A stretch of 64,000 bases of DNA. Origin: Bryoerythrophyllum caledonicum (taxonomy: Eukaryota; Streptophyta; Bryopsida; Pottiales; Pottiaceae). Shown here piece by piece: positions 721-64,000 of this stretch. The DNA lies in NCBI GenBank assembly GCA_963971425.1, contig OZ020525.1:11662187-11726186 (forward strand). The letters are read 5' to 3'. The number at the start of each line of letters is the position of its first letter. Positions within the stretch are counted from its first letter, which is position 1. The position numbers were made by a program, and so were the translations under genes. The notes beneath the pieces were generated by a model, which did no database searches, was not told the DNA's origin, and saw only the letters and a list, made by a program, of their open reading frames with translations.

Positions 721-759
721 ATTGGATTTCTTTCGTAGGGTTATAGATTCCATAACCGG

Positions 760-14520: not shown

Positions 14521-14535
14521 GTTCTGGCAAAGTCT

Positions 14536-24100: not shown

Positions 24101-24479
24101 GCTTTGAATGGTACTAACTTTCATACCATGATTCGAATCGAAATAATAAAAATACCTCCACAAACCTCTTATAAGAAACAACTTGGTAAAAAAATTCAAA
24201 AAGAAATTTTTCTTCTAGATTTTAGGAACTTGCCGAAAATGAAAATTGTCTCGACTCCCCCCAAAGGAAAATGGTTCTTTAGGGGTGAAGATAAAAGAAA
24301 GATTTGGTAGAAAAATACTCCGAAAAGAATAAGAATATAGACACGGAAGGAAAGTAAGTTTAGAACTGAACCTCTAAATGGAAAAAGTCTCAATGTTGAT
24401 TTGTTTAAATCTTGGGCACGTTCCCATGCCTCCAATATATATTTATAATTTTCTAGAGGTACATAAGAATATTATTTAT

Positions 24480-25640: not shown

Positions 25641-26107
25641 CTTTCCTTATTCATTGCCCAAGAATCAATGGTTTAAAAGTGTTTTTTATGTGAAGCCGCA
25701 AAGGAAACTTAAGGATTAGGAGAAAAGAAAAACATGCAAGAAATACATTGGGAAAACATAAGAACTTATATTTAAGAAGAAAGGGATGTAAAAATACAAC
25801 TTTATAATTAGAAAGAAACTTAAAGATAGAATAATTTTCCTATGACAAATTAGTCATTTCTAGTCCATCAAAGTATGGACGGTACTTTGCAATGATGTAT
25901 TGCAAGTGCAAAAAAAATTGATTAATAGTCCAAGTGTTGTCTAACCCTAATGCTAAGCCACATCTAATCGTAGATTTCCTAGCATAAGACATATGATCAC
26001 AATCAATTTTGCAATTAACATCTTAAACTGAATCTACCGCTAATTGAAGAAAAAAATGCTTTCCGAGATTAGAAAGCTTCCCCGACCATTGACCGCCGCC
26101 GCAAGCA
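25641..26107. other. No recognisable gene
   Basis: AT-rich stretch without coding signal or clear repeat boundaries. Confidence 0.3.
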
Positions 26108-27719: not shown

Positions 27720-27865
27720 TAGTGTCGTTCCAAGGCGATGGTGCTTAATCCTGCATAGTGGCTTTCAAGACCTTGGATTCTTTGTACAAGAATGCATTGC
27801 TCGAAATCCCATTGTAGAGGAGGGAATTGCTGACCCGTAGTTGGCTCTGAGTCCCGTGCGACGCC

Positions 27866-31653: not shown

Positions 31654-32045
31654 GGGAGGGAGGAAATATTTTTTGCACACCTTCCCGCGAATCCTGGACG
31701 CCCTGATGCACTTGCCTCCACGTTGACGGCGGTGTGCGGGGTTTTTCAGAGTGGAAAAGTGATCCTTTTGAGGACGGAGATTACCCGAAAGGGGAATTTT
31801 TAGTCCTCAAAAGCATTAGCACAGGTACAGAAGCTGTTGAAGTTGTCAGAGATTTGAAGAAGCCGTGTATGTGATACTTTTTAACAATCTCTCATCAGCA
31901 CTAATTTGAAGTGCTTGCATGGGATTAATTGTAGCACTATTTTGAAGTGCAATTAGTTATAGGCGGCATATTGATATTAGAGTAGTTAGCTAGTATTAGA
32001 ATAGCAATTAGAAGTATTTTGTAGTGGTTTAGGATTGTTTAAAGC

Positions 32046-34193
32046 ATGGCAACCATGCATAGCCGTGGTGGAGGTGGTGGAAGTGGTGGAGGTGGTGGAG
32101 GGAGGAGGAATTTAAATGCGCCAGAGTTGGGTGCGGGTCCCTCAAAAAGAGCCAAGAAGGCTGCGGATTTGGAGCTAGAAATTTACGGAGACCTTAATCT
32201 CTTGGCGTACTTCAGATGGAAAAATCTACCGGAGCCATGGACATGTCAGCAGGCGTATGAGCACATTGGTTTTGCTCACCTCGACCGATGGTATACTCCA
32301 GAAGTTCACAAGGATCATTGCCGAACGAAGCAATTGATGTATGCCAACATTACTTCCGTAGAGATAAAATGGAGGTTCTTGGAGATTTTACGAGCCATTT
32401 CCCACGAAACACGTTGGCCAAAGAATACCATTCCTAGAAGAATAGTTGTGATGGTATACGCGGAGTGTGTGTTGCACAAGCGGGTTGATTGGTCAACGCT
32501 TAATCAAGCTTTGGACCTCCCTAGCAATGTTGAGAAGCATTTAGGCGACGCACTTACATCGAGGTTGCCTATACTATCAATTCCTAGAAATCCCGTGCCG
32601 GAGTGGTTTAGCAAAAAGAGTAGTTTGGTTGATCCACCAGCCCAACAGTTGCCAGCGGATCGAGCGATACCAAAGCCCCGCAATCGAAGGAATAATATTG
32701 TGCCGACTGGTGAAGTGCCTCGTGATGGTGGGTCCCAATAAGGCCCCCAGAATGTGGCCCTCGTTCAATATTCTCCGGAAGTTGTCCTCGTCCAACAAGA
32801 TGTGGATCAACAAATCGTTGACGAGATATGGAACCAATGTAGTCCGAGATTGGGGGATCTTAATATCGGACATGTGACGGCACAACAACACGATCAGTTA
32901 CGCGGGGAGAATGATGCGTACAAGGCTGAAGCAGAAGAACGTGCGAAAGAAGCAGCTCTAAAAACAGAATGCTTGGAAGCGGAGAAGAACGAGATGGTTG
33001 CTAGCATGGCCCAATTGCGGATTGAATTAGAAGAAGCCCACCATTGTAATACGAAATATGAAGCAAGTATTTCTGCAATGCAAAACGACATACTCCAACT
33101 CCATACCGATAGGAAAACCATGATGTTGGGCACGGTATTGGCGGCATCACGTGCGAGACAATGTGAGGCTAAGATAGCAAAGATTGCTGAAGAGTGGACA
33201 TCTAACCACAAGTTGAGAGCCTTCTTACTTACATCTTGGCGGACGTTGGAAAAAATGTATCCAAGTAGATGGGATGACATGGACCCATAAGTGACTACTG
33301 CCAATGGTACCATCGACTGGGCGCGCATTCAAGAAGAAGATCACCGTTTTGATATCTATGAGAAGGGTAGAGATGGGCAACATAAAATATGGGCAAATGC
33401 GGGGACAATGACTACAGAGGGTCAAACTTGTCCCATTTGTCAATATCCATGGGGCCCGGAAGGGTGTTATACGCTCGGAGCATGTGGACATTCATTCCAT
33501 CCACAATGTCTCATTGAGCATATGATCCAAAGTCGCTCATGCATCATCTGTCATTCGCCGTATCATGCCCGTCTATATTTGCAATTTGGCTTGAGAGATT
33601 TCATGCCGACACATTGGGAGTATCGTCAAGAATACTTTCCAAATTTTGACGTAGGCACTGATGAAGAGAAACCCGTTAAATGGAATTGAAGATTCAACGT
33701 ATCACATGCAGAGCTGGTTGCAGTAAACGAGGCATATGGCACCTTAAAAGATCCAACGAACATACTGCGGGCGGCGGAGGGGTTGTATCCTAACCAACCA
33801 CCAGATTACGGTCTGAAGATGTTTTTCTACAATGTAATGGGGTGGCATTTTGATCGTGAGACACAGACAATATTGCATGGCCTTGGGCCTGCACCACATT
33901 ACAACTCATCCGGAGAGCTGGCGGTCACTGGTGCGGAATTCAGGCGTATGTATCGCGCAGTGGAAGAAGTCTCAGAACTACGCAATGCAATGGTGGACTT
34001 GGTTGCGAAAAGGACGTATCATCAACCCCGGCTACATAGTTTGGCCCTTGACTTTATCTTGAACGATGTTTCCCCAGAAGTCAAGGCTATCCTCGATGGT
34101 CTACAGAATAGACAGAGACCGGAAACAGAGGTGCTACGAGCTTCTTATAGACCTCAAACGCGCCGTAATGATGGTACCTCATCGTTGCGCTAA
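32046..34193 (+). pseudogene. Coiled-coil/RING-H2 protein, probably element accessory gene; three in-frame stops
   Basis: One frame of 716 codons contains a Gly-rich N terminus and a basic SKRAKK stretch. A globular Trp-rich domain follows (residues about 45-200). A strong coiled coil lies at residues about 285-390 (Glu/Ala/Lys heptads). A RING-H2 finger starts near residue 460: CPIC, ACGHSFHPQC, then SCIICHSPYH, giving C3H2C3 spacing. A C-terminal domain of about 170 residues ends at 34193. RING-H2 fingers usually act in E3 ubiquitin ligases. In-frame stops are TAA 32739, TAA 33288 and TGA 33687, with no frameshift. It follows the hAT-2 gene on the same strand with the same promoter layout, suggesting one two-gene element. 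I do not recognise the N- and C-terminal domains. Confidence 0.7.
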
Positions 34194-38515: not shown

Positions 38516-39124
38516 TGTATATATATAAAAGAGAAGAAGAAGGAAGTGGAGATGGTAAAACGGTCAAGAAGGCTTCTAGGGGAAGAACCCTTGCTAATCC
38601 TCTTCTTAGATAAATTAGAATTAGAATTATCGTAAGACTAGCAATTGGTTGACAAATTGTTGGTTTTCAATTATTTAGAACTCGGATTTGACCGTACGAA
38701 TAGTTTATTTTGAGGTAAAAAAGTGTTTTAAACACATTGGTGAAGTCGGTTTGGTCAAAAGTGTATTACTTTGGAAGACCATCCAGCTCAATAATTGGGT
38801 TTAGAACTTAGGGTTAATTTGGACCCTTGATCTAGTTAAGGGTTCTTTAACTTGGATGGTGGAGATGTTGTTGCCGCCCTTAGGCCTTCTTGAAAGAGGA
38901 TAAAGAGTCCTTCGGCGCCCTTCTCTCTCTTCTCTTGGGCGAAGCTATGCAAAAATCTCCCCCACTCTTTGTATTATTGTCGAGCTGCGGTTGCAACTCC
39001 ATTGTGAATTAGCTTTTTAGAATTAGGGCGTGAAACTTCACATGTAGTTATATCTAGTTGTTAGTGTTCTAAGGATACTAGGCACGCTGGATTTGAAGTA
39101 AGGACGTGGAAGTTGTGGAGTTTT
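38516..39124. other. No recognisable gene
   Basis: AT-rich sequence with no coding signal that I can support. It forms the left flank of the 12.8 kb two-gene element. Confidence 0.35.
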
Positions 39125-39722
39125 AACACGCAATTAAGCAATTATGCACTTAGCCAAGTGCACTGCTTGCTGGTAGAAAGCCGCAAGTTATTTGCTCATA
39201 ACTTTTTTTTAAATCAAAATTTGGCAAAATTTTAGTATGTTTTTTGTCAAATTTTTTTGGTGTTTGTTGTGTCATACCTTGGCATCTTCATGTTCATATC
39301 AGTAATATATTTTTTACATTTGCTACCTTTTTTTAGAAAATATATGATTTCTAATCTAGTTTACAAATCCTGCTACAAAATCATAATCATGTGCCCAAAG
39401 AGATTATAAATTTGTTATGAGTTATTATAGGATTTTAGAGTAGTGCACTACAAATACAATGTGTAAGAGATATGAAAATATATATGCAATTTCCTAAGAC
39501 AGTGTAAAGTACCTCACTGTATTTTATAATGCAAAAACAAACATAATCAAGCAATTCCACACTATTGCCGAGGAATTCTAAAATCAAACATATCATATAG
39601 ACCACCCAATATATAAATATATACCACCCATCGAACGATAGACACATCTCAAACTACATTATACTAACGCACTTGCCACCTAAACTACGTGCATGCTCTA
39701 CTATAGTATATAGCTCCACGGC

Positions 39723-42700
39723 TCATAGCTCATCTTCTGGCGGAACGACTCCCTCCACGTTTCCAATGGCGCTACCTACCATAGCGGACAGTTCATGATC
39801 CTGCACTGGACGATCTCCCACATCTTCGATGCCAATGGATGCACACTCAACAAATCGGTAATTGCCAGGTACACCCTCCCGCGTATGCCTTACGCGATCA
39901 TCATTGTAGAAAAAGCCATCTTCAGGATTGAAGGACATCTCTCGCTCTGATGAGAAGGCCCCCTGAAATGCAATGATGTCCTCGGATACGCTAGATCTTG
40001 GAACGGAAGCCAAACCTGGTCCGATATCACTCTGAGTACCTCCAAACGTCTCTTGTGTCTCCGATACAGGCTCTGATTGAGAAGGCATCAAAGGCTGTGG
40101 AATCCTCCTCTGCACCGAAAAAAATTCACATGAATCCAATCCTTCTTCCTCCATCTCCAGCCTAGGACCATCAAATGTATGCCCCCCTCCTGCCCTTGTC
40201 GCCAATCTAACATCTACTACACCGGTATCTTGCATCCTCTCTGTAGGTGTTGCAGATGTCTGCCCTGAAGTATCTCCCACCGCCCGTTGCGTTGATGGAA
40301 TCCTGTCTCTTGGAGGAGACTAGTTCACTCCATCTTCATCGGCGTCTGAACCACTGCGTGATGAGAAATCTTCAGTGGTACCTGAACGTGGCAATCTCTC
40401 ATTTAAACCACCTCCATCCTCATTGTCGTCTTCATTCCTCACTCCACCAACCGCCTCTTCGGTCTCAGGTACGATGTTGCAACCAGTACTTGTTCCACCA
40501 GTCATGACCAACAGTTGTCCTTGGAAATTGTCGGACAACTCATTGTACAGAAATGAAACTCTGTCTGTACAATCGTCAATGATGAAAACCTCAGATCCCT
40601 GGAAATCTCCTTCAAGGATCGTGGGAATGGCTGTTGATATGTTACACGCCACTAAACCCCAACCACGGGGCAAGTATGAGCCCACTAGTCTTGCCAGCTC
40701 TGATGGAGATCTCTCAAGTGAATCAACTTCAGAGGGTTGGCGTGCCTCACTCCAGTGATCCAAGAAAACAAGAGGAAGTGGAACGTCTCCAGAAACATAG
40801 TTCGGGCCAGGAGATGTACCCACAGGGTGCTGCATACAAATCACAACATCACCAATCGGTTGTACTACTTGCTCCAGACGCCCATTCTCTGTAAAATCGA
40901 GAGCATAGGGATTAACCGAGTTTGGATCAAATGCCCAACATCCACGTCGCATAGTACATCCCTCTGGAAGCTTCAGCTTCGTGAAAAACTCTTCGTTGGC
41001 ATACACGGCCGCTGGTAACAAGAAGATGACGTTCCATCGTTCAATATTTGCCATCCATAATGCCAGCTGTGCAAAAACTGCGGATAATTGGGCGTCTCCC
41101 CAATGAACATCTCCATGCCTCCCACCGCCACGTCGACAATCAATCACCCACAAACATGGTTTCCCCAACTCTATGTAGTCGGTGCGGAATAACCCTCTTC
41201 TACACCGAACCGGAAGAAGATTCTCTGTGTCGCTCTGGCTTGGCCTCTTGACTTCCATCTGCCATTCCCAATTAGCAGTAGCCAGTCCTCCCACATCCAC
41301 AGACAGTCCAACGTATCCACGCCCCCCTGCTGCAATGTCACCATAATGAAACCTGATGGAAGGGGGGATGAGGTAGCCTATGTCTTCCAGTTTAGACACC
41401 TTCCCCCGCACAGGAGCAGTCCAAGCTTTTTTCATGGCAGCATTCAAAAGCTTCCCAAACGTATCAAGTTGTGCGTTACTCCTCGGAAAATACTTTCCTA
41501 CACGGATACGAAAGAAATCCTCCATGGAATCAGGTGTACTTTCCTTGTTCTCCACCATCAACCAACGGATGGAATTCATCACAGCTTCTCGTCTCTGATA
41601 TCGGTCAACCACACCGGCAATCGTACGAGGATGTGGATTCTTGTCTTTTACACCGTCAAAGTAATATGCTTGACGTGGTCTTACTCCATCCTCCCCCACC
41701 GGCTTCGCTGCAGCAGACTTTGCCAACCGAAGATAATATGGATTCGGAACCCTACCTAACGGCCTCAACCAATTCTGCGTCATCTCCTTTCTTGTTGGTC
41801 GTACGTCCACATTTGGATCCAGCTCTTTCTTCCTCGCCATGTCCTTCCACTTGTCCTCTTCCTCCTTGCTGTAAAAGAGAATGCCGTCTTCGTAGTCCTT
41901 GCATACTTGAATGATAGCTTCGAAGCGGTCATTGTTCCAATTCCATGCATGATTGGTCAAATCCTCCATGTTTTTGGCCAACCTCTTCACCGTGACAACT
42001 CCATCCCCCTTGGGCAACTTGTGCACTGCACTTGCCGCACTCACCAAAGCAACAGCCCTGCGTGCATCGTCCGTACGTAGTGTGCTATCAGGCCTCCCGT
42101 ATAGATCCCAAATCTGACGGATCTTCCTCAAATCCTCCTCCATGGTAGAATATGAATGTCTCTGGAACTCCGCCACGTTGATCCGCGCAGACTTCTCAAT
42201 GTAAAAGCGACGATCATCATACACCAAAAAAGAGGCCTCCCGCCGCTCAAACGTGTCCAGATACTCGTCTAAAGGCATAGTACCATCTCTCCACTGTTGC
42301 TGTGCAAACTTACAAGCTGCTACTACGTGTTGCCCATCCACCAGTTCCCAAATGATATGATCTTGAAGCCAAGAATACTGGGATCCCATAGCACCCTGTG
42401 CAGAAGCACTCCCGTGTACAATGAACATGCGCTCAAACTCTCGTGCAGTACCTACCAATGGAAATGGCAGCTCTTCCTTCTCAACGACTCCATCATCGGT
42501 GGTAGTATGCACGATGTATCTGATCGGTCGAAGTACCAATCTACTCACCCGAGTCGCGGATTCTGGGTCTCGTAAGCGGTTGAATACTTCTATGACCCTC
42601 TTCTGTGATAAAACCCGGTGGTTGGTTTCCGGATTCTCCACAGAGACAATGCGGTCTATGTGTGCCTTAAACACAAAATTCCCCCACACAGATCCTTTCG

Positions 42701-43688
42701 CAATCTCCTCTGTTGTAGGCACTGGTGCTTTTAAATTCATTGGAGTTGGAAGATCCTATGGTATCTCCGCATTGTCTTCAAAATCCTCTGGTATACTGTC
42801 TAGAAGGTTGTGAAAATCTTCTTCCTCCGGCGCCATGGCTGACAAATCAGCTAAATCTCCCGGTATAGATGTAGGGGCCCTACGATGACCATCAGACGTC
42901 CTGAGCCCCGACCTAGGAATCCTGCCACCCGATCTTGCACTTCTCCCAATCAACCTCCTCCCACTTGGATCCATACTTGATAGGCCTTCTCTTGAACCAG
43001 AATCTACATCACTGTCAACACGCCGTGGCCTCTTCGTAGGACGTCTACTCGTTAATAGAGGATTCGGTAATGTCTGTACCTCAGAAGTTGTGGTGGGATG
43101 TTGGCCTCCACTTCCTCTCCCCCCCTCCAGTGGTCGCCAATCTAGTTGCAACGGCTCAGCAAGAATTCGATAAACTTCTGTTTCTTCTGGTTCCGTTGGT
43201 GGGGCTTGAGTTGTCGCACGCGATGGGTCCCTCTCCCGAAATGCCTCATATCTGATATGTTCCTCCATAATCTTCTTAGCCTTCAGCACCATCTCTGGTG
43301 ATAACGCTAAACAGGCTAAGACGTTATTGTGTCTAGCAGTACGTACCGCAAGAGAGATGTTCAACCAAAACGTCTGCAATGATTTGAGGAATTTCACTTG
43401 ACCTGGATTTTGAAGAAGATTCAAAGGGACAGGTGCAAGAAGCAACTTCTTCGAAAGTGAAGTCTTCACCTCCGATTGACCTGGACCCACTGCGCAAGTA
43501 ACGTATACCATATCATCACGTCGAAGAGTGATTGCCTGGATTTTGCCAAAACTCTTTCCCAACGCTGATGTACGCTTCCCCAGCTCAAAGGGATAATCCG
43601 TCACCTATAAGAAAGCGCTCGTCTCATCCACTTCCACGATCCACCAACCGTAGCTCTCCCAGATTCTATCAATATTTAGTGGTGCCAT
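39723..43688 (-). pseudogene. ParB-like + degenerate permuted methyltransferase-fold protein; three in-frame TAG codons
   Basis: One minus-strand frame of 1,322 codons runs from an ATG at 43688-43686 to a TGA at 39725-39723. It is interrupted only by TAG at 43605-43607, 42756-42758 and 40320-40322. Residues about 320-520 resemble a ParB/sulfiredoxin-fold domain, with WELVDGQHVVAACKFA as the ParB box and a downstream SARINVAEFQ...EEDL helix pair. The last third has the order of a beta-class (permuted) DNA amino-methyltransferase. WVIDCRRGG stands where DPPY is expected. Later SPSELARLVGSYLPRGWGLV leads to CNISTA, where the AdoMet-binding FxGxG is expected, then EVFIIDDC. Both key motifs are replaced, so catalysis seems lost. 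The C-terminal part is Ser/Glu/Gly-rich. A DNA-binding accessory role is my inference. Confidence 0.6.
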
Positions 43689-43739
43689 AACGCCACACTC
43701 AAAAAACCTGTGTATCATTACAAAACGATAGTCACTATT

Positions 43740-44800
43740 AGTATGGAATAAGAATTTTTGAACCACCACTCATTGCACAATTTTTTTGAACATGCAACAT
43801 CCCTTGTCTACCTCTAAACTTTTTGCACTACAGAAGATCTAAATCCAATACCATCGTGTTAAGCATGTTTTTAGTTCTTTGGTGAAATAGCATATTAATC
43901 CAAGTCAATTATTTTCACACATTGTCACACATTTTCGGCTACCATATCCAAAAAACTTCTACCTTTCCACATAAAACTTTGAGAACTTCGTATGATTCAC
44001 TTTTGATTTTGCCTACAGCCTTATATGATGTAAAACTTCTTATTGACCATTTGAATTCTCATTTAAAACATGATCGAGTTCACAAAAAAATATAACGTGA
44101 TTTGAGAATTTTTGAACTTCCACTCATTGCACATTTTTTTTGAATATGCTAAACCCCCTGTCTACCTCTAAAAACCTCTACACAAGATCTAAATCCAATA
44201 CCATCGTGTTAAGCATGTTGTTAGTTAATTGGTGAAATAGCATATAAATCCAAGTCAATTATTTTCACACATTGTCACACATTTTCGGCCACCGTATCCA
44301 AAGAACTTCACCCTTTTCACATTCAGATCTTTGTATGATTCACGTTTGATTTTTCCTACGACATTATGTAATTTAAACCTTCGTATTGAGCATTTGGATT
44401 TTCATTTCAAACGATATCAAGTTCACAAAAAGACATAACGTGAATTGAGAATTTTTGAACCCCCACTCATTGCACAATTTTTTTGAATATGCTACACCCC
44501 TTTTCTAACTCTAAAAATTGGTATACAACAAACTAACATCATGCTTAACATTATGGTAATTAATTAAGACCCTTTAAAATGCAAAAATTGGACATTAATT
44601 GACGTCAAAGTCTGCTGATCCAGAAAACGCAGGGATGAAAATGAGCCTTCTCTCTACTTCAAACATTATAATCTTTCAATCCGTGCGGTAAAACTTTATG
44701 AAATTTTTTGAGTGTATTTCTTAATAAGTGATTCTTGAGATCCTACGGTTAAAAGTACCAAAAAAACCTTCATTTTTTTCCCTTGCTAATTGCACTAAAA
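43740..44800 (+). repeat. R-family repeats, three partial copies in tandem
   Basis: Starts near 43,750, 44,090 and 44,440. Each carries TTTTTTGAA(C/T)ATGC(A/T)A, TCTACCTCTAAA-like words and CACATTGTCACACATTTTCGG. Period about 340 bp. They match the copies at 24,480-25,640 and 47,250-47,860. Non-coding. Confidence 0.65.
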
Positions 44801-45019
44801 CTAGCATTTTTAACGATTTTGGGTCCACATCATTTATGGACCAAGGTACTTGGGGTATCAATATCGAGGGTATCATAACCAGGGTATGAATTAGTGGGCA
44901 CCACAACCGGTTATCAACCAAGGTTTAAGGTTCGGGTATCAACTTAGGGTTTCTAATTAGGGTTTTGGAATTTCGGGTATCAACAAAGGATATCAATCCT
45001 TGCACCATGGGTAGTCCTA

Positions 45020-45880
45020 GGAGGGGTGTGCGCGCGCACACCCCTGGTTGTTGTTGTGAGGGATGGCTGTGAGAGTGAGAGAGAGGGTTTGGAGGAGGGA
45101 GAGGATTGTGGGTTTGTGAGAGGAACTTGTGAGGGCGGAGAGTGAGTAGAGAGGAGTTGTGAGGGAGAGGAATGGAAGGGAGGTGTGAGGGAGAGTTGTG
45201 GCGGCTAGGGTTTGGAGAGAGATGGAGAGTTCGGGAGNNNNNNNNNNNNNNNNNNNNNNNNNNNNNNNNNNNNNNNNNNNNNNNNNNNNNNNNNNNNNNN
45301 NNNNNNNNNNNNNNNNNNNNNNNNNNNNNNNNNNNNNNNNNNNNNNNNNNNNNNNNNNNNNNNNNNNNNNNNNNNNNNNNNNNNNNNNNNNNNNNNNNNN
45401 NNNNNNNNNNNNNNNNNNNNNNNNNNNNNNNNNNNNNCGGAGAGATTGATGCCGGGAGGCTGCCGCGCCGCTAGTCCACTGCAAGGGTTCTGTGGGGCTG
45501 TGGCGCCTTAACTAAAAAATCCTAAATTTTAATGGAAACCCTGAACTCATAAAGCTCTTCAATTGTCGTCAAGAGGTGGCACGCGGCGGAAACTTACGAA
45601 GGCCAGGTCGTTTTTGGATTGATGGAGGAACACCAGCAGTTGGGGGTGTGCGCGCGCACACCTCCAGTCTATGGGTACTCCATGAGGTGTCGTGCGAACT
45701 CCATGGGAACGGCGGCTAGGGTTTGGGTGCGGCGCCTAGATCTTCGGTGCGGCGGCTAGGGTTTGGGTGTGGCAGCTAGGGTTTGGGTGTGGCGGCTAGG
45801 TCTTGGGTGCGGCAGCTAGGGTTTGGGTGCGGCGGCTAGGGTTTGGGTGCCTGGGTGTGGCGGCTAGGGTTTAAGGCAGT
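45020..45880. other. GC-rich island with assembly gap between the divergent genes
   Basis: G-rich on the plus strand. The palindrome GTGTGCGCGCGCACAC occurs at 45028-45043 inside a larger palindrome, and again at 45646-45661. The gap (N) is 45238-45437. This island lies roughly midway between the two gene starts (43,688 and 48,165) and may be a bidirectional control region. Confidence 0.45.
45711..45874 (+). repeat. 20-bp minisatellite
   Basis: About eight copies of GGCTAGGGTTTGGGTGYGGC with few variants. The unit contains CTAGGGTTTGGG, reminiscent of a telomere unit. Confidence 0.8.
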
Positions 45881-48164
45881 GAGTTAATGTGCCATACTAA
45901 GGATCTACTGCCATAATGCTAGCTACTCTCTCGACTTCAATTCTGTGTGGTTTTGGTGTAATAGTTTCAGTTGAACGAAGGCTGAACTCACGAGTTGTTG
46001 ACTGTTACATGTGTATTCACTGAACTTTGTTGAATTTGCAATTTTGTACGCACTCAAGTTGGTGTCCTCATTTGTGTTCTAAAATATTTGTACTCACCTA
46101 ACACTATCATAACTATCACTGAACTTCAAGCATCAAGAACCTAACCTTGGAGTTCCCTCATTTTCAGAACTGAAACAAACTCAAAAGCTTACCAGAGTTT
46201 CAAAAATCTCCTTGATGTGCAAATTTCCTCCAATCTACACAGAACACAAAGTTCACAGGAATTAGTCAATGAAATAAATATTACATTGCCTTGAGGTTTC
46301 AATTGCAAGAGAGCTCACCTTAGAAACTGGGAAAAGAAATGACCTCTACATTTGCATGAAAACCTTATATCCATGTTGGAATCTTGTGCCTCAAGTTTAC
46401 TAGAGGAAATTTGACTTTGGTCTTTGGACCTTTTGCTTTGTTTCTCCTTAGGTTCCCGCTTTTTACATATAATATTAAAATTTCGAGCTATATGTAGTAT
46501 GAAGATACTTAGAAGTTTTTAACTTATAGTTTACCATATGAATTTTATGCATGTGTTGCAGGTAAAGTACGAAGAGTTGAAAAACATGTTCAACAACAAC
46601 GGAATGGTGATTTAATGTTGGACACCATCAAACAACAGTGCGTGTACCACTAACACCTGCAACGTATCTTGAGGTAAATTTTGTTTTTTATACAACTTTA
46701 ATATTATGTGTTGATTGAGCTTCTGTACTATGTTGTTTGTAGAATAACCTTTATGTGGATGTACAACCCCTTTCTTTTATTAGTGATTGTAACAAGTTCG
46801 AATAGTGTCAGTAATACCAAGTAGAGAACATGGTTCATTTTATTCCCTAGGTTCATTGGATTCCCTTCGTTTCAGTTCACTTGGATTCAAAAGATTGCAT
46901 CACACATGATCTAGATTTATTATCATCATGTCAGAAATGATATTAGTTCTATTTTATACCAATGTTTAGGGATGCAAAACGGGTGTAGCATATTTAACCC
47001 CTAAAGGATCAAGTGTCAAAAATGGGCTTTTTGAAAGTTCGGTCAGGTTCCTATGGTGTCAATTTCTAACATTCATCTTTGAAAATTACACTATAGAAAG
47101 GTATTACAAAGACTTTAGTGGGAATACAATTATTACCTAAATTGGACATTTGTTCAAAAAAATTTAGAGTTTTGAATTTCAAATGGGGAGAGCAGGCAAG
47201 TCGGGCACGTCCAAAATCTATTGCTAGGACACTCTGTTGAATGTGAGATTTTCAGTACTTGCAAGTAATATTATTTTTCTTAATGATGTCAAAGTAAGTT
47301 CTTGTCTTTAGTGAAAAATAACATATCAATCTAAGTCAAACATTTTCACACATTGTCACTCGTTGTTGGGCAAGGTACCAAAAAAACTTCTTGTTTTCCA
47401 AATAAAACCTAGATATCTTTTTATTTTTCACTTTTTATTTTTTCCACAACAATATGTGGTGTAAACCATCTTATTGACCATTTGGACTACCAATCTCAAA
47501 CATATTAAGTTCACAAAAAATTACAGTTAGAATTAACAAATTCCGAACTTCTACTCCTTGTACAGTTGTTTTGAATATGCTAAACCCGTTCTCTACCTCT
47601 AAAAATTGGTGTAGAAGGAACTAACATCATCCTTAACAAGATGGTTATGGATTTCGACCTTCTGTAGTGTCAAAATTAGATACCAAGTGAAGTCAAAGTC
47701 TGCTGATCCACAGCACGCAGGGAAGAATATGAACCATATGCTTAACTTCAAATACTATTATCTTTCAATCCGTACGGTCAAAGTTTATGAAACTTATGTA
47801 TATATATTACTTAATAAGTCTTAATCGAGATCCTATGGTCAAAACTAAAAATAATAGTTTTCATTTCCTGTTTTGTTCATTGCACTAGAATTCATGAATT
47901 TTGAAGTGTTTTGGATGTAACACTGTCATTGTACCTTCAGGGTTAAAGACCCGTGCAAGGAGTTCATGCTTTACAAATTCTTAATTTTTTCCATTTTAAA
48001 GTTGTTTTATCAAAAGGTCCAATATCATCATCATATTTTGAACAGTAAATATGTGTTTAGAAACATATCTTTTATCAGATGAATGGTGCTTTTAAGGTTA
48101 ACAATTAGTACATGTATTTTGACTACTGTGCAGCCAAAATGTTCCTATTTTTTCAATAGTGATA
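45881..48164. repeat. Non-coding centre of the two-gene element
   Basis: 47,250-47,860 is an R-family copy, and 46,860-47,000 includes a short inverted piece of the same family. A segment at 46,562-46,673 is flanked by TTGCAG and GTAAAT, and CTGTGCAG stands at 48,126-48,133. An upstream non-coding exon of the DUF7869-type gene is therefore possible, but I cannot confirm it. Confidence 0.4.
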
Positions 48165-51100
48165 ATGGAGAGCCGCACGATTCAAACTCCTTCAATACGG
48201 CCACACATCCAAAGGGATAATATGCATTCCAATAGCTCTGTGGGGGCCCGATTAGTACGAGCAGCACGTGCAAGGCAAATTCAACAGAGATCTGATGGGA
48301 TCATGACATCTGAATTGGAAAGGGCAGTAGAATTGCTTTCTGAAACAGGGGATGTGGTGGGCTTAGCAACCAGGGAGCATGCATTCAAAAGTGGCATGGA
48401 ATTGAATGGATCGAAGTTGTTCCCATTCGAGGTGGCGGTGCGTATCACTAGGGTAGATGATGCATTGCATTGGACCGGAGAGATTGTAGGAGAACGCCTT
48501 GGCATGTGTGTGGGCTTGATCATTCGTTGGCATCGATCTTTGCTACGTGTAGTGGCAATAGAACCTGATATCATAGGTGTCCATGGTGACAATGGATCAC
48601 AGATATCGCCTACACAAGTGATGGCCCCAGAATTTGATTTTTCTGTGTTCATCAACACACCAGGATCCACGGAGAGGTCTCGACGCAGTAGTCATGCTTC
48701 AAACGCCATAGATGAGAATTCACCATTTTTTCAATCTACTCCCTCAAACATCCAAGATTTGCCCCATGTAGATGGATTTGCTTATGTTAGACCAACACGT
48801 CGTCCATATTCTATGCAAAATAGGAGAAGGAGAGATTCAAGAGAGCCATCATTGACGGAAGCTGCACGAGCTAAGGTATCGCTTAGAAGCGTACAAATTG
48901 CAATGGAACAAGGAGGATGCAAACGCAATTGTTTGAGGGACGTTCCAGCAAGGTATCTATTGGACATGCGATATAATGCATGGGGTAATGAGTTTTCAGT
49001 ACGAAGTACGTGGATGAGACAGATGCTGGTTTCTTTTTACACAAGGACGGAAGGAACTCGTCGAGACAAGTTTGTAACAAAGTTAGATGGGAAAGAAGTT
49101 TGCAATGCCTGCTACGCTCTTGGGGTTGGATATTCACAGAGGCGCTTTAAGCAATTGAAGATGGACTGTTTAATATATGGAAGAGTGACATCAATTCACG
49201 GCAATACCCTTTCAGATCCAATCAGAGAGAGCACTAGGATGTCTACGGCAGAGGCTTGCTTTAAATCGTTTGTCGATGAAGCTGGTTGTCCTCAACCTCA
49301 TCGTTGTATTCGCCGTAAGAGTGACAACGAGGTGGTGCCTCTCATTCTCCTTCCTATGAATACAGCCAAATTTGATGTATTCAATTACGTGAACGAGGAG
49401 GTCAAGAGAATTTGTAATGGTGAAACCATTTCTATGAGTTCGTTCCGGAGGATGTGGCGCATCAAGTATCCCCACGTTCAGGTACCTCCATTCTCGAGAT
49501 TCTCAAAGTGTTATCATTGTTGGGAGTATAAATGTGCCATGGAGGGAACCACCAATGCGGATGCAAGAATAAAGATAAAAGAGTTGTTTATGTTGCATCT
49601 ACGCAACCAGATGGAAGAACGTAGGCATTATTGGATATTCAAGAGGTCGTGTTATATTAGCCCTGAGCTGTATATGTGCATCATAGTAGATGGCATGGAC
49701 CAAAATACGACCATGGTACCGAGGATGCGGCAGACTGTGAAGAACATTGAACACCGGTTTGTGAAGACCCATCTGTGTGGTGCTCTTGTACATGGTATTG
49801 GTTTATATTGCGACGTGTGGTTTGGAGCTCACCACAAACACGATAGCAACCAAGTCGTGAGTACATTGTTGTACGTGATAGGAGATGTGCTGCGGAGGAA
49901 GGGCTTTTTGCCACCAACATTGCGAATCCAGGCGGACAACTGCACACGCGAGAACAAAAACATTTATATGTTTGCTCTATGTGCTACATTGGTAGGATTG
50001 GGGTTTTTTCAGGAGGTGGAACTATCTTTTCTTATAGTGGGCCATACACACGAAGATATTGATCAACGCTTCAGTTGTATATCAAATACGTTGAAGAGGT
50101 CGGACGTGGACTCGTTGAAGGAAATGATGAGTCTTATAGAACAAGGAACATCTCCTACAGAGGCATTTGTTAGCGCCCGGCTGCTAGAGAATGTATGGGA
50201 TTGGAAATTGTTCATAACTCCTCACTTACTGACAGGTCAGGATTCATTGATGGGCATAACATTTCCGCACCACATGCGATTCTATATGGACAATCGAGAA
50301 GGGACTCGTGAAGTACGAGTACAACACAAACATTATTGCAAGGATCCATGGGGACCGGAGGCAGGAACGAAAACTTTGAGGTCGTTGCCATGTAGGGATG
50401 AGCGACCATCGTTTGCGGAAGTATTTGGAGCGGACGAACGGGAGTTGAAGGCGTTGGATGACTTCATTGTATATAAACAAAGGTGCATTCAAAGGTTGCA
50501 GCATGAGGACAAGAATCGTGAGGCAAAAGTAGAGGCTGAAAGATTGAAACTCTATTTAGCTGAATTTCCACACAAGGATCGTAGCAATGAGCATCGTTCC
50601 TCACCGTTTTGGCCTTCAGAGTTCTGCAACACCGTACCTACAGAGACTGCATCTTTGGATGTAATGGATGGTACAAGTGAAGAAAATCGCGAGATAGATG
50701 TCGTAGAGCAGGTAGTGGCGATGCTTCCAAATGCCGAGGCTCGAGGATACTTTGGTCCTCGTAGAGGAAGACCCTCTAATCAAGCAGTGCGTAGGGCACA
50801 ACAAACAGAGCGCAACTATGTTGAGGAACGCGCCGAAGAAGGAGGAATGTATGAAGGTAATCACAACCCATTTCCACCATTTAATCCACAATCTGATATC
50901 CGTTGTGGACAGTTTGTAGCCTTGAGTGTTGATCGAGCAGAGATAGAAGGTGGTGTACCATTCTATGTGGGAAAAGTGATTGAGGAAGGAAAAAACCAAT
51001 GGAGACTTAAGATGAAGGTTTGCTGGTATTGGCCCATCATTCAAAGGGGGGTTACTGATGGACATGGGTCTTCTGCACAACGATATGCAAATTGCATGGA

Positions 51101-51356
51101 TTCATTCTGGGAGCCATCTGGGGAGAGCCATAGTTGGGTAGAGAAAGATGCATGCATTTTTTCATGGGTAGACACATTGGAAAGAACCATGTCCGGGGCC
51201 AGCGGGTGGAGAAAGCGCAATGTATTTGGAGTGCAGGTTGAAAGCAGGATTCGCATTCTTCAATCGGCAAAGGCTCACATCCTACAATATATTGCAATGC
51301 AAACCGAAGCTATCGATGACGACCGTTTGCAAGCAGCCCTAAATTCTATGGAGTAG
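48165..51356 (+). CDS. DUF7869-type protein, putative RNase H-fold transposase, intact
   Basis: This is the longest intact frame of the window: 1,063 codons from the ATG at 48165 to TAG at 51354-51356. A GTG at 48159 is in frame but less likely as start. Residues 1-240 are variable. Residues about 250-340 carry GCKRNCLRD and KEVCNACYALGVGYSQRR, a Cys-rich N-terminal module of this group. Residues about 445-480 give PHVQVPPFSRFSKCYHCW. The core follows: VDGMDQN (Asp about 509/512), QADNCTRENKN (Asp about 591) and GHTHEDIDQRFS (about 626-637). I know this core from large families of uncharacterised animal and algal proteins annotated DUF7869. Two conserved Asp plus an acidic HED motif suggest an RNase H-like DDE/D nuclease; that function is inferred. 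A KRRGRP-like GRRGRPSN motif lies near residue 865. Confidence 0.7.
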   Translation: MESRTIQTPSIRPHIQRDNMHSNSSVGARLVRAARARQIQQRSDGIMTSELERAVELLSETGDVVGLATREHAFKSGMELNGSKLFPFEVAVRITRVDDALHWTGEIVGERLGMCVGLIIRWHRSLLRVVAIEPDIIGVHGDNGSQISPTQVMAPEFDFSVFINTPGSTERSRRSSHASNAIDENSPFFQSTPSNIQDLPHVDGFAYVRPTRRPYSMQNRRRRDSREPSLTEAARAKVSLRSVQIAMEQGGCKRNCLRDVPARYLLDMRYNAWGNEFSVRSTWMRQMLVSFYTRTEGTRRDKFVTKLDGKEVCNACYALGVGYSQRRFKQLKMDCLIYGRVTSIHGNTLSDPIRESTRMSTAEACFKSFVDEAGCPQPHRCIRRKSDNEVVPLILLPMNTAKFDVFNYVNEEVKRICNGETISMSSFRRMWRIKYPHVQVPPFSRFSKCYHCWEYKCAMEGTTNADARIKIKELFMLHLRNQMEERRHYWIFKRSCYISPELYMCIIVDGMDQNTTMVPRMRQTVKNIEHRFVKTHLCGALVHGIGLYCDVWFGAHHKHDSNQVVSTLLYVIGDVLRRKGFLPPTLRIQADNCTRENKNIYMFALCATLVGLGFFQEVELSFLIVGHTHEDIDQRFSCISNTLKRSDVDSLKEMMSLIEQGTSPTEAFVSARLLENVWDWKLFITPHLLTGQDSLMGITFPHHMRFYMDNREGTREVRVQHKHYCKDPWGPEAGTKTLRSLPCRDERPSFAEVFGADERELKALDDFIVYKQRCIQRLQHEDKNREAKVEAERLKLYLAEFPHKDRSNEHRSSPFWPSEFCNTVPTETASLDVMDGTSEENREIDVVEQVVAMLPNAEARGYFGPRRGRPSNQAVRRAQQTERNYVEERAEEGGMYEGNHNPFPPFNPQSDIRCGQFVALSVDRAEIEGGVPFYVGKVIEEGKNQWRLKMKVCWYWPIIQRGVTDGHGSSAQRYANCMDSFWEPSGESHSWVEKDACIFSWVDTLERTMSGASGWRKRNVFGVQVESRIRILQSAKAHILQYIAMQTEAIDDDRLQAALNSME

Positions 51357-51929
51357 ATAGTGTGCTTTTTAGAGGGTATACTAGTTGTGTATGGTAATTG
51401 ATATATAGTGTATGTGTAAGAGTAGTATATTCTAAGGGTGATGTAAGACGTTATGTCATTAATCCTTTAGAGTAAAGCTGTGTTTACTATTGGTGCTAAG
51501 TCCAATTGTTAAAGCATCTATATTTAGTTTTCACCATTGTATGCATTCTGTACTACGTAGAATATTTTTTAATCAACTGCCAACCCTTGCAAAAAGTATG
51601 TTTTTTTGTAATTACGCCTGTTTATGTAGTACAATCCTTGAAATCTATCTTTGAAATATTGTGAAACTATATTAAATACACATTTATCTAGTATTAACGA
51701 GGATCCACCACAAATTAGTTGAAAATGCCAAGAAAATCGCTTCGAATATGAACAACCATGATTGTACGTAATATTGTTGCAGAATCTCAATTTTTTTTTC
51801 CTTTGGAAAACATTTTTTTTCTTTGTTTTTTTTTTTTTTTCCAATTTTGCAACTTTTGTTCGCAATGGCCGCCGTTGTACCCAAGTGCACTTTTAAATGG
51901 CCAAGTGCATAATTGCTTAATTGCGTGTT

Positions 51930-53240
51930 TTTTTAGTGGCAAAGGGTCTGCTACTTAGCAGATTCGGAGGGCCAACTTCGATGGACTAATGCGAACGGAT
52001 CCCTACTCGATTGGGGTTGTAATTTGAAGGGCGTACAGAACCTAAAGCTAGTTTTGAAGGGACTCTAAGCACGCTCAATTCCAAACAAAGACAACAAAGT
52101 TATGGCCGTTGTAGAGGTCATTGCCATACTTGAAATGCGACGGCTTCTAATTCTCTTACTTTTTAGGATGAACCTTCGATGAATTAAGTCAATTGGATGG
52201 ATGTTTGGTTTGGATGATAAGTTGACTTATGTTGGATGGAATCAAATGTCATTTTAAGATTAAAATGACCGTGATATTTTAAGATCACATTAAGGTTAAA
52301 ATTAGCTTCACATATGTGGGACATGATAGGAGGTTTCAGTTGTGAAGATTTCACCTACGGCCCTTCGACTTGTCTTGTATCTAGGCCGTGATAGGAGGTT
52401 TTAGTGGTGAAGATTTCACATACTGCCTTTCTGGTGGCGTGTCAAGTCTGGTTTAGGTTGTGGGGTGATTTATTTTAAAGGTGAAGTCAAAATTGGCTTC
52501 ACACATGATTTTTTGAGATTTTTTGTTGAACAAACAACTTTTTATTAGCTTCTTGTTGACATGATTTTTGTAGAAATCCAACTTACGATTCAAAAGCTAC
52601 AAATGTTTCTAGTAACATATACAAATAGCGCAACGGTTTAGTGTGACATATAACAAATAGTGTAGCAATACTTTGATTAATCCTAAATTCTATAGAAATT
52701 TGACTTGTTATCCATTTAAAAATACAATAAAAACTTTCACTTTGAAAGATGCATGGAAATCTTTGCATCTACTGTACAAATTTTTTAATTTCAAAAATAT
52801 GAGAAGGATATGATATATGCTAAACTTGTAAGTGTATTGTCAATTTTCAACACATAGTTGCATTCTAGGGTTTTTAAGGACATCTTCTATCCCTTTTCTA
52901 CTTTTAAATATAGTGCCCATGTGCCTAATATGATTCTTTTCAAGTTAAAATTAGAAATCTACGACCTCTAATGCAGAAATTTGATATAGATAGTGGTTGA
53001 AGTTTGTTGAAGGTGTTTGGTATGGCCTTAAAAAGATTTTATGTCTTACTTCAAAGGCTGATATATTTTAATTCGAGCGATTAAGCTAAAAAAAAATTTT
53101 ACCATGTACACTTGTTCAATCCTAGTACAAGATCCTATGGTTAGATATGTAAAAGTTGTGTTTATATGCATTTTGTGTTGAATGCATTGAAACTGGCAAT
53201 TTTTAGTGAGTTTGGGTGTTAAAATGTCAGGGTCCTTTAG
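51930..53240. other. No recognisable gene
   Basis: AT-rich flank of the two-gene element. An imperfect direct repeat of about 60 bp (GATAGGAGGTTT...GTGAAGATTTCAC) lies at 52,323-52,440. Nothing else is supported. Confidence 0.4.
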
Positions 53241-53289
53241 GGATTATTGGATTTCTTCTAAGACGATGTGATGCAACAATTTGCTTGAG

Positions 53290-53780
53290 TACTTCATTCC
53301 AAAGTTTTTTTTATAGAATTGAGGTTAGGCAATTGTGGTGAATGCCATATGATCTTAAACTCATGTGTCAAAACCCAATCTTTCATATACTTAGATAAGT
53401 ATTTAGGGTTGACGTGTTGGAAAATAACTTTCTTTTCTTCTAAACCATGCATGTGTATGGAGTTTATGAATTCCATCTCCAAAATATCACAAAATACATA
53501 TGTATCTCCAGTCCTTCTATGAAAGAAAGGTAGTCAATTCTTTTCTAGCCTTTACAACCCCAAGTCATAATAATTCTTCCCCTAGATCTGATAGTAGGTT
53601 GCACATGTTGGTCAAAAAATGTTCTCAGCTCCCTTTTTAACAAAATTGTAGCCAATCTTAGAGAAATAAAATTGAATTTTGTGTGGATTGATGGAGAGGT
53701 GGCGGTGAGCGGCGAGGAGTGGAAACATATGGTAGTGAGTAGTAGTGAGGGACGTGATACATGTTGAAATGTGTCCACAT
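53290..53780 (-). pseudogene. Tc1/mariner transposase remnant
   Basis: Minus-strand frame 53,778-53,545 reads HTKFNFI, QHVQPTI and GRIIMTWGC, matching the Tc1 pattern KFNLFG...HVKPTVKHGGGSIMVWGC. Frame 53,482-53,294 reads VIFQHVNPKYLSKYMKDW, then WHSPQLPNLNSIKKTLE. These match FQQDNDPKHTSKxVKDW and WPxQSPDLNPIENLWE, with the second catalytic Asp position changed (HVN for QDN). Heavily decayed; no terminal repeats identified. Confidence 0.8.
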
Positions 53781-53789
53781 TAAATTTTT

Positions 53790-55744
53790 TCCAGAACCAG
53801 AATCGATGTGGTCCACATCATTTCTCACCAACATTACCACACTATGTTCAATGTTTAGTGTAGTGGATAAAGGGGTGGTAAATTTTGTGAGATTTCAACA
53901 ACATACAACTCTGGCAAGTTTGGAAGTTTCCGGCTTAAACATCTATTGAGAACAACGATCCTAAATTTATTTTTGTAGATTGGCAAAAATGCTACAACCT
54001 TTACTTTGAAGGGCTTTGAAGGAATTTGGGAAAGTAATCAAGCACATAGTACATGGAGATAAGGTAAACCCCCCCTAACCAACGAATTAAGCAATGGGCA
54101 TATATGGAGAGAACAAATAATATTACAATTATATTCTAGTGATAGGCACTAGAACTACATTTAAACCCAAGTGATTTCATATTTTCCCAATAAAATATGA
54201 ATTTGTTATGAATTTTCAATTTATCAAGGCTTTTCCAAGTCCCATTCTCCATTGACGTCCCTCATGTCACAAATTTTGTATAATGATATTTTTTTCAATT
54301 TTGACATTTTCATCTAATAATTTCCCATATAACTCAGCATGCTTTAACCCCAAAATGACCACGGTTAATTTCACTCCAAAATTGGTCCAAATTTGCCATT
54401 GTAAAAAAACAGGTAAAATTTTGGACTTTCAACTATAAGGTCTTCAAATAGACTTCTTCATTATCATGCCGTATTTTTTGGTTGCAATCCACAGCACGGG
54501 TATGAAGATTACAGTGTTTGAAGTGCAACAAAAAGTATTCCCCCACCCCTTGCCCATCAATGTGAAATTTTTGACTCCGCTTAAGGTGTTTTTTGACCTA
54601 AAGACAAGAATTATTTTTTCACATCTTCAAAGGTAGAAATATTCAGTATATATATGATAAATATTGATGTTAATAGAAACTTCTAGAAATTTTTTGGAGT
54701 TGCTCAAAGTCCCAAGTTTTGCACTTAGAATGACATAAGTTTCTCTTTAAAGGTCCATTGTGAAAAAAAATTATATTTCCACAAAGCAACTACTATGCCG
54801 TGTCTTCAAAAAATAAATCCAAAAACTTATGATCAAAATTGAGACCATAGGAACGTGTCAAAAAAGAAAACGCCGTCAAGGGGTAGATGGTCCTCGAGGG
54901 ATTAACCTTTTACCGCCTAGGAAGTCCAAAATGCAACTCCGGAGGTGCTAAAACTCAATTTGCATGAAATCCATGAGGATCTTGGCTTTGAAATGTGAGG
55001 GTCAAATTCATGCACACATTACATGAACACTCTCCAACAATTAGATCATGCTTTGGACTTATAGAACTCTTGGAAAAGTTAGGAATACAACACAAAATAC
55101 ACCAAATACACTAAAATACAGTGAATACAGTGAATACAATGAATACCATGCCACATACTATGTTGTTTTGCACACACATGCACATTGATTTTGGTCCTAA
55201 ATTCTGATTGAACTTCATCTTTAAGACATTCTTCACTATTTTGTGAGTGTTGATCTCTCCTCACATACAAAACTTCCGTTTTTATTCGTATAAGGTTGGA
55301 ACATTTTTGTTTACAATCAAGTAGAAAAAAGAAAAAAAATCACCAATAATTGTGTATAAATATTTTTTTCACATATGATATGTCAATGTGAAGCTATCAA
55401 CCTAGTGCACATGTAAACCGCTCTAATTCAGAGAAAAAAAATTCTTGCAAGAATCTATTGATGATTAAAGTAGTACACCCTCCAAATTCCATAGTTTTCA
55501 CTACCAATATACAGTAACTTTAAACACTATAATCTATTCCAACAACCGTTGGATGTTGTGCAAAATTTCTCCAATGTTCAGGTCAAGGGTTAAGTTCATT
55601 TTTGTAAAGTTAGATATTAATATTAGGCATTGTATTTCCATCAAATCCGGTTCAAAGAAAAAAATCAGCAGAAATCTTGGTTTTTCTAGAGGTATCCGTT
55701 GGCGGTAAAGGGTGGAAGCCAAACCTTACCCTAACCTACAGTAG
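53790..55744. repeat. AT-rich stretch with a dispersed repeat
   Basis: 54,064-54,220 is related to 17,969-18,110. The rest (AT-rich, homopolymer runs) has no gene that I can support. 55,085-55,150 contains a short run of AAATACA/GAATACA repeats. Confidence 0.4.
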
Positions 55745-56113
55745 TACCATAGGTGAACCTGTGGTTCAGCACCTCCATGCCGAACAATTAATTAAAGTGA
55801 GAAATGGCCATTCGGCATCCAAAATAAAAATATATTAACTTTTGCAAGAAATCACATATTTACTGTATTTAGCACATTTGACAACCATGGGGCTTGAATC
55901 CAAGACCTTGGGGTTTTTAATCAAAGCCTCTTTGTATTCACAACTTTGAAGGGAGGCTTTTCCTAGCCCCACTCCCCTTTAATGTCTACTAATGTGACAA
56001 AATCTGTAAATATAGAGTTTCTCTAGTTTTGGCAATTTCATTAAATATTTTCCCACTTAATTCGGCAAGCATTTTCTAATTAATAAACTCCGAACTAGAG
56101 GTTCACCTACGGT
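55745..56113. mobile_element. MITE-like element of about 370 bp
   Basis: ACCATAGGTGAACCTGTGGT at the left is matched, inverted and with few mismatches, by GAACTAGAGGTTCACCTACG at the right. A target duplication is not clear. No coding capacity. Confidence 0.5.
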
Positions 56114-56170
56114 GGCAGCCAGGTTTTTCTTGTAGCTTTTCAACTAATTTTAGCCACTTTAGAAGAACGT

Positions 56171-56424
56171 TATCCTGAGTCTCTGCCACAAACCTGAGAA
56201 TGATCTGCCACAACTTGAGAATAATCTGCCACAAACCTGAGAATAATCTGCTACAAACCTCAGAATAATCTGCCACAAACCTCAGAATAATGTGCCACAA
56301 ACCTGAGAATAATCTGCTACAAACCTCAGAATAATCTGCTACAAACCTCAGAATAACCTGCTACAAACCTCAGAATAATGTGCCACAAACCTCAGAATGG
56401 TCTGGCACAAACCTCAGAATAATC
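56171..56424 (+). repeat. 22-bp minisatellite
   Basis: About eleven to twelve copies of AATCTGCCACAAACCTGAGA-type units (CC/CT and TGAG/TCAG variants), starting just after the MITE-like element. Confidence 0.85.
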
Positions 56425-56630
56425 AAAGTTAAACAGAGACATCTGAACGCGACGCTGCAAATTCCTTGTCAGAGATACTTGGAGGATTTGCGGAGTGTGC
56501 TTTTGGATTAACGCAAGATGGAGTGGTCCTACCCATTCCTTGTCAGTAGAATACTGTACCACCAATCGCATGAACAGTTTCAGATATAATGACGATTTCC
56601 TGCCTTGAAATTTTTAAGCAACATGACTAC

Positions 56631-56843
56631 ACTGATTTTGATGTTTAGTGTCATGGGCAGTAAATGACTTGTAAATGCTATAGTTTCCACTCTTGATGAA
56701 TATTTTTACCGACTATGTCCACTATGATCCCCTCTTTGAGCAGTATAGATTGTTGTGCTCTTCGTAAAAATTTATATCAAAAGAAAAAACTTACAGCATT
56801 TACAAGTCATTTACTGCCCATGACACTAAATTTCAAAATCAGT
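56631..56843. mobile_element. 213-bp MITE with arms of about 47 bp (TA-flanked)
   Basis: 56631-56679 begins ACTGATTTTGATGTTTAGTG and is matched, inverted, by 56797-56843 with about two mismatches. TA lies next to each end (TAC at the left, TAT on the reverse strand at the right), suiting a Tc1/mariner-type MITE. The transcript would fold into a long hairpin. Confidence 0.7.
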
Positions 56844-57061
56844 ATATTGTACCCTAGGGTCGGATTCTGCATAAAACGTTTCTTAAAATAGCTACCGAAA
56901 GTTTCGGAAAGTATTTTTCAAAAACATCAATTTTTTTAGCACGGTGAAGAAATGGCTTTCGAAGAATCTTCTATTGTAGAACTTTGATGAATTCCTATTT
57001 TTAGAGGAAAATAATTATTCAGCACCGACGTTTTGGTACAGTAATCCGAATCAGCCTGTCA

Positions 57062-57271
57062 GAGGTGTCCAAAGAGGTGTTTCCTACAAGAAACTTAGCT
57101 ATTATCCCTGACAGCATTGTGAAGGACAGCCTTGCGAACCTGCATGAAAAGGCTGGGAGTTATGTTACCACCTCCATATCTGTGTCAAATGATTGTGAAA
57201 TATTCACACAATTGCGACATAGATTCCAGAACAATGTCTTGAGTCTTGACAGAGAACCTGAGAAGCTTTAA
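57062..57271 (+). other. Short unexplained open frame
   Basis: The frame from about 57,020 to 57,271 reads EVSKEVFPTRNLAIIPD, then a well-mixed amino-acid composition to EPEKL and stop. A possible splice acceptor (TTATTCAG) stands at 57,022. It looks more protein-like than its surroundings and could be the last exon of a decayed host gene, but I do not recognise it. A MITE inserted exactly at its stop codon. Confidence 0.3.
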
Positions 57272-57366
57272 GGCCGCTTCTAACCAGGCCGAGTCGAGTC
57301 GAGAGTCCGTCCGTAAAAAATTTCTGCCCAAACTATGGCGAGAGTCCAAACTTTTGGATTAAAATG

Positions 57367-57400
<34 letters not shown>

Positions 57401-57951
57401 AAATTTCATTTTAATCCAAAAGTATATATATAATAAAATGAAATATATATATATATATATATATATTGAAGCCTTTGGGCGGCTCTGGTGTGAAGCCCCA
57501 TAGCTCAAGTCCAAAGTCCAAATCCCATATAATTATGCCAAAAAAAGTCAGCCTAAAATCAGCCTAAAAAAATCAGCCTAAAAATCAGTCTAAAAATGAG
57601 CCAAAAAAATGAGCCATAAAAATCAACAAAAAAAAATGAGCCAAAAAATTTGGCGTCTTTCATCTAACGGTCTAGATCTTGTCAGGTTTTGATTATTTTA
57701 TTTAAAAACTCGACGGCCTCTTGAAGGAAGTTTGGGTCGACTAAAAACGGCGACCCAAGTTTTGCTCAAGAGTCTGTCGCCTTGGCGCCAAAACTCTCCA
57801 AAAGTATTGCCATGTAGGCAGATAGGAAGACGACGGCCTTTGGACTTTGGCCTTTGGTGTGAACGCCAAGAAGCCAGACTTTGGCCATTCAAACAATCTC
57901 ATTGGTAGAAACCGACGGACTCTCGACCTTGGATTTGGTGTGAAGGAGCCC
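57271..57951. mobile_element. 681-bp MITE, PIF/Harbinger-like
   Basis: Flanked by TTA on both sides (57268-57270, 57952-57954). Left end AGGCCGCTTC and right end (reverse complement) GGGCTCCTTC share the start, and both reach GGTCGAGAGTCCGTC-like sequence further in. Internal (AT)n runs and TCAGCCTAAAA repeats (57,545-57,650) are present. Non-coding. Confidence 0.65.
57367..57466. repeat. AT microsatellite
   Basis: Two (AT)n tracts arranged around an inverted AAAATGAAAT word, inside the MITE. Confidence 0.85.
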
Positions 57952-57954
57952 TTA

Positions 57955-63900: not shown

Positions 63901-64000
63901 ACTAATTAACAACCTCGACTTATCTTGGAAATTATCCTAACACAATCAAATTGACCGTAAACAACAACAAAGACAAACGGACCGTAAACAACAACATTGA
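60930..64000 (+). mobile_element. LINE copy 2, 5'-truncated, running off the right edge
   Basis: Plus-strand homologue of the minus-strand LINE at 1-3,400. It holds CPNKSK (about 60,970), MQAANIKHHNQPIPILHQ (61,017), YLGTNLVPFVKWK, MKQKIKM and FYVVPYSM (to 61,300). The RNase H block follows: LTDCINVLYLLNKQ near 63,550 and KVKAHANIKRNEQADRLAKE near 63,690. Homology starts within the reverse transcriptase, just after the YADD position, with no trace of the endonuclease. This suits 5' truncation during target-primed reverse transcription. Many frameshifts and stops are present. The sense strand is A/C-rich as in copy 1. The SINE-like insert of copy 1 is absent. Confidence 0.85.

Follow-up and report, generated by a model that had tools for sequence, protein, structure and literature searches.

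Sola transposons and the element in the window

Transposons of the Sola kind combine a DDD transposase with 4-bp target-site duplications and terminal inverted repeats (TIRs) of 11–1124 bp; most are 2–9 kb long, some exceed 15 kb, and they are present in Physcomitrella (PMC10741241), for which Sola1 is also listed in PMC9033089 (all papers are cited here from extracts). Sola1-1_Ec32 from Ectocarpus is 21.5 kb long and carries a gene on the opposite strand that encodes a ParB-like and N4C/N6A methyltransferase protein of 1104 aa (PMC12477816). Here we analyse an element at positions 39125–51929 in a stretch of 64,000 nucleotides from Bryoerythrophyllum caledonicum (contig OZ020525.1), which is called the window in the following. 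The element is bounded by inverted repeats and contains a gene for a DUF7869 protein on the plus strand and a large partner gene on the minus strand (Table 1). We consider it rather probable that it represents a single inserted copy of a large Sola-kind cut-and-paste TIR DNA transposon in a plant-like nuclear genome.

Like Sola1-1_Ec32, the element appears to be a DNA transposon in which a large second gene is encoded opposite to the transposase. The two differ in size (21.5 kb versus 12.8 kb) and in host (a brown alga versus a plant-like genome), and the partner found here gives no profile match and is interrupted; this comparison is one of descriptions. Sola1 of Physcomitrella is a land-plant Sola, and Sola elements overall show 4-bp duplications, a DDD transposase and variable TIRs; at this level of description, the extracts of PMC9033089 and PMC10741241 do not mention a ParB/methyltransferase partner. 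Similar ParB-methyltransferase proteins are reported for green and red algal transposons (PMC12477816, citing Iyer et al. 2011 and Petroll et al. 2025, the latter cited there for giant EnSpm elements), which by description would resemble our element in being DNA transposons with such an accessory gene, if the partner is of this type. Sola2 elements with Fanzor1 have AT-rich 4-bp duplications, comparable to the candidate duplication found here, and likewise carry a second gene, but this cargo is Fanzor1 and their TIRs measure 12–21 bp (PMC3627910). Sola1 elements of molluscs are shorter, with a mean of 5445 bp (PMC10294476). Extracts from three further papers about giant or novel transposons (PMC6431247, PMC10045372, PMC3671162) contained nothing on ParB or on the sequence of Sola.

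With a size of 12.8 kb and TIRs of 32 bp the element lies inside the published Sola ranges, and judged by such descriptions it probably belongs to Sola. The original prediction had raised the possibility of a new superfamily. This is unsupported, if conceivable: Sola transposons, which are known from moss, already have a DDD transposase together with 4-bp duplications (PMC10741241), and a published Sola1 element carries a ParB/methyltransferase gene on its other strand (PMC12477816). The element looks like another example of an already described kind, as a similar gene pairing is known from the brown-alga transposon. Less probable is that the DUF7869 transposon falls into a separate superfamily outside Sola, to which the 4-bp duplication and the partner would be alike by convergence. 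This would agree with the finding that no result of our analysis ties DUF7869 to Sola, DUF7869 being the sole Pfam family at E ≤1, and that the literature searched contained no mention of DUF7869 or PF25273; it is opposed by size, TIR length, candidate 4-bp duplication and opposite-strand second gene, all of which match published Sola elements. We give little credence to a further variant, in which DUF7869 would define its own transposase superfamily; its members would generate 4-bp duplications and always be accompanied by the divergent partner, a diverged DNA-binding protein of the ParB type that has lost methyltransferase chemistry and serves as a second transposition subunit.

Ends of the element and candidate target-site duplication

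The inverted ends are real and exceed chance expectation. Left and right end agree in 31 of 32 bases, and at up to 3 mismatches the 32-bp end was found at these two places only in the window (mean of 0.00 in 100 shuffles). An exact 27-mer inverted pair at a distance of 3–20 kb occurs once in the window and corresponds to the element ends; even 16-mer inverted pairs averaged only 0.33 in 30 Markov-1 simulations, with a maximum of 2. The 32-bp repeats with one mismatch that had been predicted were thus confirmed. Both ends are directly abutted by TTTT, a candidate target-site duplication; a 4-mer would agree between the flanks by chance with an average probability of 0.0054, a value that is less informative for poly-T within a T run. 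The motif GTGCAC, which was chosen after inspection of the ends, occurs in three places in the subterminal region, the 32-bp ends themselves excluded, compared to 0.19 expected from the window rate.

Both genes point outward from the centre of the element. The distances from the ends to the nearest stop codons are 598 bp on the left (stop at 39723) and 573 bp on the right (stop at 51356), exactly as predicted, with the restriction that the left stop is the third stop in the frame of the partner. The prediction of two long divergent genes likewise holds for the orientation; the minus-strand gene is cut by two TAG codons.

An assembly gap of 200 N lies between the two genes, and this would be compatible with a fusion of two different copies during assembly, so that the genes might derive from separate elements. 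We regard this as improbable, because the agreement of the ends in 31 of 32 bases and the identical 4 bases abutting both of them are expected of one insertion.

The DUF7869 gene

The plus-strand gene encodes 1063 aa from its ATG. The DUF7869 assignment of the original prediction was borne out: Pfam DUF7869 (PF25273) matched with 173.5 bits (curated cut-off 26; E = 4.8e-51), and it was the only Pfam family reported for this protein at E ≤1. The spacing of D509 or D512, D591 and E630/D631 (residue numbers start with the ATG at 48165) resembles a DDE/D triad, with D509 and D512 located upstream of the Pfam match. From their spacing we infer that these residues may form the catalytic set, and the DUF7869 protein likely acts as the transposase. 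The ends, the candidate duplication, the unbroken open reading frame (ORF) and the spacing of acidic residues support a large DNA transposon with a DUF7869 transposase, as had been proposed, with catalysis as the inferred part.

Alternatively, the element could depend on mobilisation in trans and carry the genes between its ends as cargo, the DUF7869 protein not being the transposase. Giant families that contain only genes not homologous to transposases are reported in the extract of PMC12477816, and DUF7869 is not named in the literature searched. We see only a slim chance for this explanation in view of a long unbroken ORF that has DDE/D-like residue spacing and ends 573 bp from the terminus.

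If it is a DDE/D transposase with an RNase H fold, the DUF7869 protein would bind to the 32-bp ends, possibly with the help of the nearby GTGCAC motifs, excise the element and insert it at a staggered cut in the target, which would generate the 4-bp duplication. The partner gene would be transcribed away from the transposase out of a common middle region and may correspond to the accessory genes described for transposons of algae. The encoded protein could be a DNA binder of the ParB type whose methyltransferase fold has degenerated, and it might bind or mark element DNA. An unbroken ORF flanked by real transposon ends gives DUF7869 a concrete setting, and our data suggest that the arrangement of a transposase and an oppositely transcribed large accessory gene occurs in a plant-like genome. 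Should the partner indeed bind and modify DNA, this would amount to transposon-encoded marking of its own sequence.

Table 1. Positions of the element's parts and of features between its genes (window coordinates).
Feature	Position	Strand	Details
Candidate target-site duplication, left copy	39121..39124	.	TTTT, abuts left end
Left terminal inverted repeat	39125..39156	+	32 bp
Partner gene, single frame	39723..43604	-	1294 codons; TAG 42756-42758, TAG 40320-40322, TGA 39723-39725
Partner gene, longest open segment	40320..42755	-	811 codons; ParB-like motif by eye from segment residue 139
Repeat block, ~350-bp period	43751..44800	.	family common to parts of 23400-25694
Assembly gap	45238..45437	.	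200 N, inside element, between the two genes
Tandem 20-bp repeat with CTAGGGTTT motifs	45710..45850	.	taken to be telobox-like
Further block of the repeat family seen at 43751-44800	47267..47918	.	common to parts of 23400-25694
DUF7869 gene, likely transposase	48165..51356	+	1063 aa from ATG, no internal stop
Stretch with candidate catalytic residues	49689..50057	+	D509 or D512, D591, E630/D631
DUF7869 domain	49755..50303	+	residues 533-715 of the 1065-aa GTG-start ORF, E = 4.8e-51
Right terminal inverted repeat	51898..51929	-	32 bp, 1 mismatch to left repeat
Candidate target-site duplication, right copy	51930..51933	.	TTTT, abuts right end

The partner frame is interrupted

Codon preferences were trained on the DUF7869 ORF and the 811-codon segment of the partner. 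The two outer partner segments scored 0.218 and 0.252 in frame, and the highest value of a non-coding sample (at most 500 windows from 52500–63000) was 0.189. Since the outer segments exceed the non-coding maximum, the three minus-strand segments look like one gene that is interrupted in this copy. The two TAG codons may lie in introns or be bypassed by read-through, and an intron may also end at 43605, with TTTCTTATAG ahead of the partner frame. We also considered that TAG is read as an amino acid. Open runs of at least 80 codons in the same frame flanked 23 stops on both sides; 10 of these stops were TAG, 6 TAA and 7 TGA, while TAG makes up 1758 of the 6266 stop triplets in the window. This slight lean towards TAG speaks neither for nor against such a reading.

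Identity of the partner and points against the assignment

The partner had been labelled as ParB/methyltransferase-like. Our profile tests were negative and the DNA-binding reading was made by eye; the label is possible for this sequence. An unrelated accessory protein or a second transposition subunit would be only slightly less probable than its opposite. Besides the negative profile tests, this alternative is favoured by the open segment, in which no DPPY/W and FxGxG were seen by eye; an active N6/N4 methyltransferase is expected to carry both motifs. It is disfavoured by the sequence VDGQHVVAACK, which by eye resembles a ParB box, and by the first two Foldseek rows of a low-confidence model, which are S-adenosylmethionine (SAM) methyltransferases (best E 0.18).

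Partner segments showed no ParB family in Pfam at E ≤10, a search in which HMMER filters may drop a very diverged domain; this negative result refers to Pfam, as no dedicated ParB profile was built. An N6/N4 DNA methyltransferase domain was not matched in Pfam either. We used a methyltransferase profile from 15 sequences, 14 phage proteins and YhdJ of E. coli, all of which were retained. We found no ParB fusion to include, and its two longest members, when checked against Pfam, contained the methylase domain and no ParB. With this profile, hmmsearch scored the 811-codon segment at E = 0.24, its N-terminal part at 0.17 and the reversed segment at 1.2. Probabilities from hhalign were 1.2% for the whole segment, at residues 281–377 and outside the candidate region, and 0.1% for the candidate region itself, compared to 0.1–0.8% for 8 shuffles. 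The low-confidence partner model yielded 563 Foldseek matches to the PDB at E ≤10 and none at ≤0.001. Among the best 50 of the 563, 20 were clearly methyltransferases, 4 possibly so, 23 were NTF2-like and 3 others. For the partner, sequence searches of the PDB yielded two chance hits (E 1.4); the DUF7869 protein had no match.

Several observations weigh against a Sola-kind transposon with this gene pair. The assignment to Sola is based on published descriptions of its elements. Only a single copy is at hand, its 4-bp duplication is poly-T inside a T run, and the two halves of the element are joined across the N gap. AlphaFold models from single sequences were poor for the DUF7869 protein (pLDDT 35.7) and for residues 456–760 of the 811-codon partner segment (pLDDT 37.1). 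The 15-sequence N6/N4 methyltransferase profile does not recognise the partner, which in Pfam gave sub-threshold rows only; PHROGs and NCBIfam gave no match for its two longer segments, the scan having left out the 198-codon C-terminal segment. Searches for homologues of the DUF7869 protein retrieved 1 stretch fitting a pattern in viral contigs and 10 stretches in genome contigs, none of them confirmed; phages gave no match and plasmids one match at E = 5. For the 806-aa partner segment, 1 stretch from viral contigs and 14 from genome contigs were likewise not confirmed, and there was one match at E = 5 in phages and none in plasmids.

Degenerate motif scans of viral contigs returned 0, 4 and 0 stretches. 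PF25273 was present in none of the 4 stretches, an absence that is not informative because the scan control was positive in 0 of 14 genomes. When the fetched loci were all searched by tblastn, E values were 2.6 or worse.

Region between the two genes

The two repeat blocks of the intergenic region account for about 1.7 of the 4.5 kb that separate the genes. They match parts of the element at 23400–25694 and are, judged by this similarity, probably foreign to the transposon. With these repeats and the 200-N gap inside, the length of 12.8 kb is nominal. We had considered the ~350-bp repeats as the element's own binding sites and dropped this idea, because the same family forms the inverted-repeat element at 23400–25694. 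The ends of the latter are about 460 bp long and 74% alike, and no convincing duplication was detected around it, the longest exact word in common being 8 bp. The 20-bp sequence GGGGTGTGCGCGCGCACACC, with an 18-bp palindromic core, is found at 45023–45042 and 45643–45662 and flanks the assembly gap.

Other features in the window

A hAT-like ORF is located at 27851–29848 on the plus strand; its piece 27851–29050 matches Pfam DUF659 (E = 4.1e-34), and an in-frame TAG follows at 29051–29053. At 32043–34193, also on the plus strand, we observed a chain of ORFs in the same frame with single stops between them, two scanned pieces of which had no Pfam match at E ≤0.1. Long inverted similarity (69–72%) connects the two ends of the window, 180–3351 and 60952–63976. 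Since a reverse-transcriptase match at 3325–3885 adjoins the left copy, these are probably two opposed LINE-like copies. A cluster of direct and inverted repeats, with pieces of about 80 to 670 bp, covers 14784–16100, and TTTAGGG-type repeats are present at 14535–14585; together with the hAT-like DUF659 ORF, the latter repeats suggest a plant-like host. Finally, 56182–56424 consists of a tandem array with 11.1 copies of a 22-bp unit.

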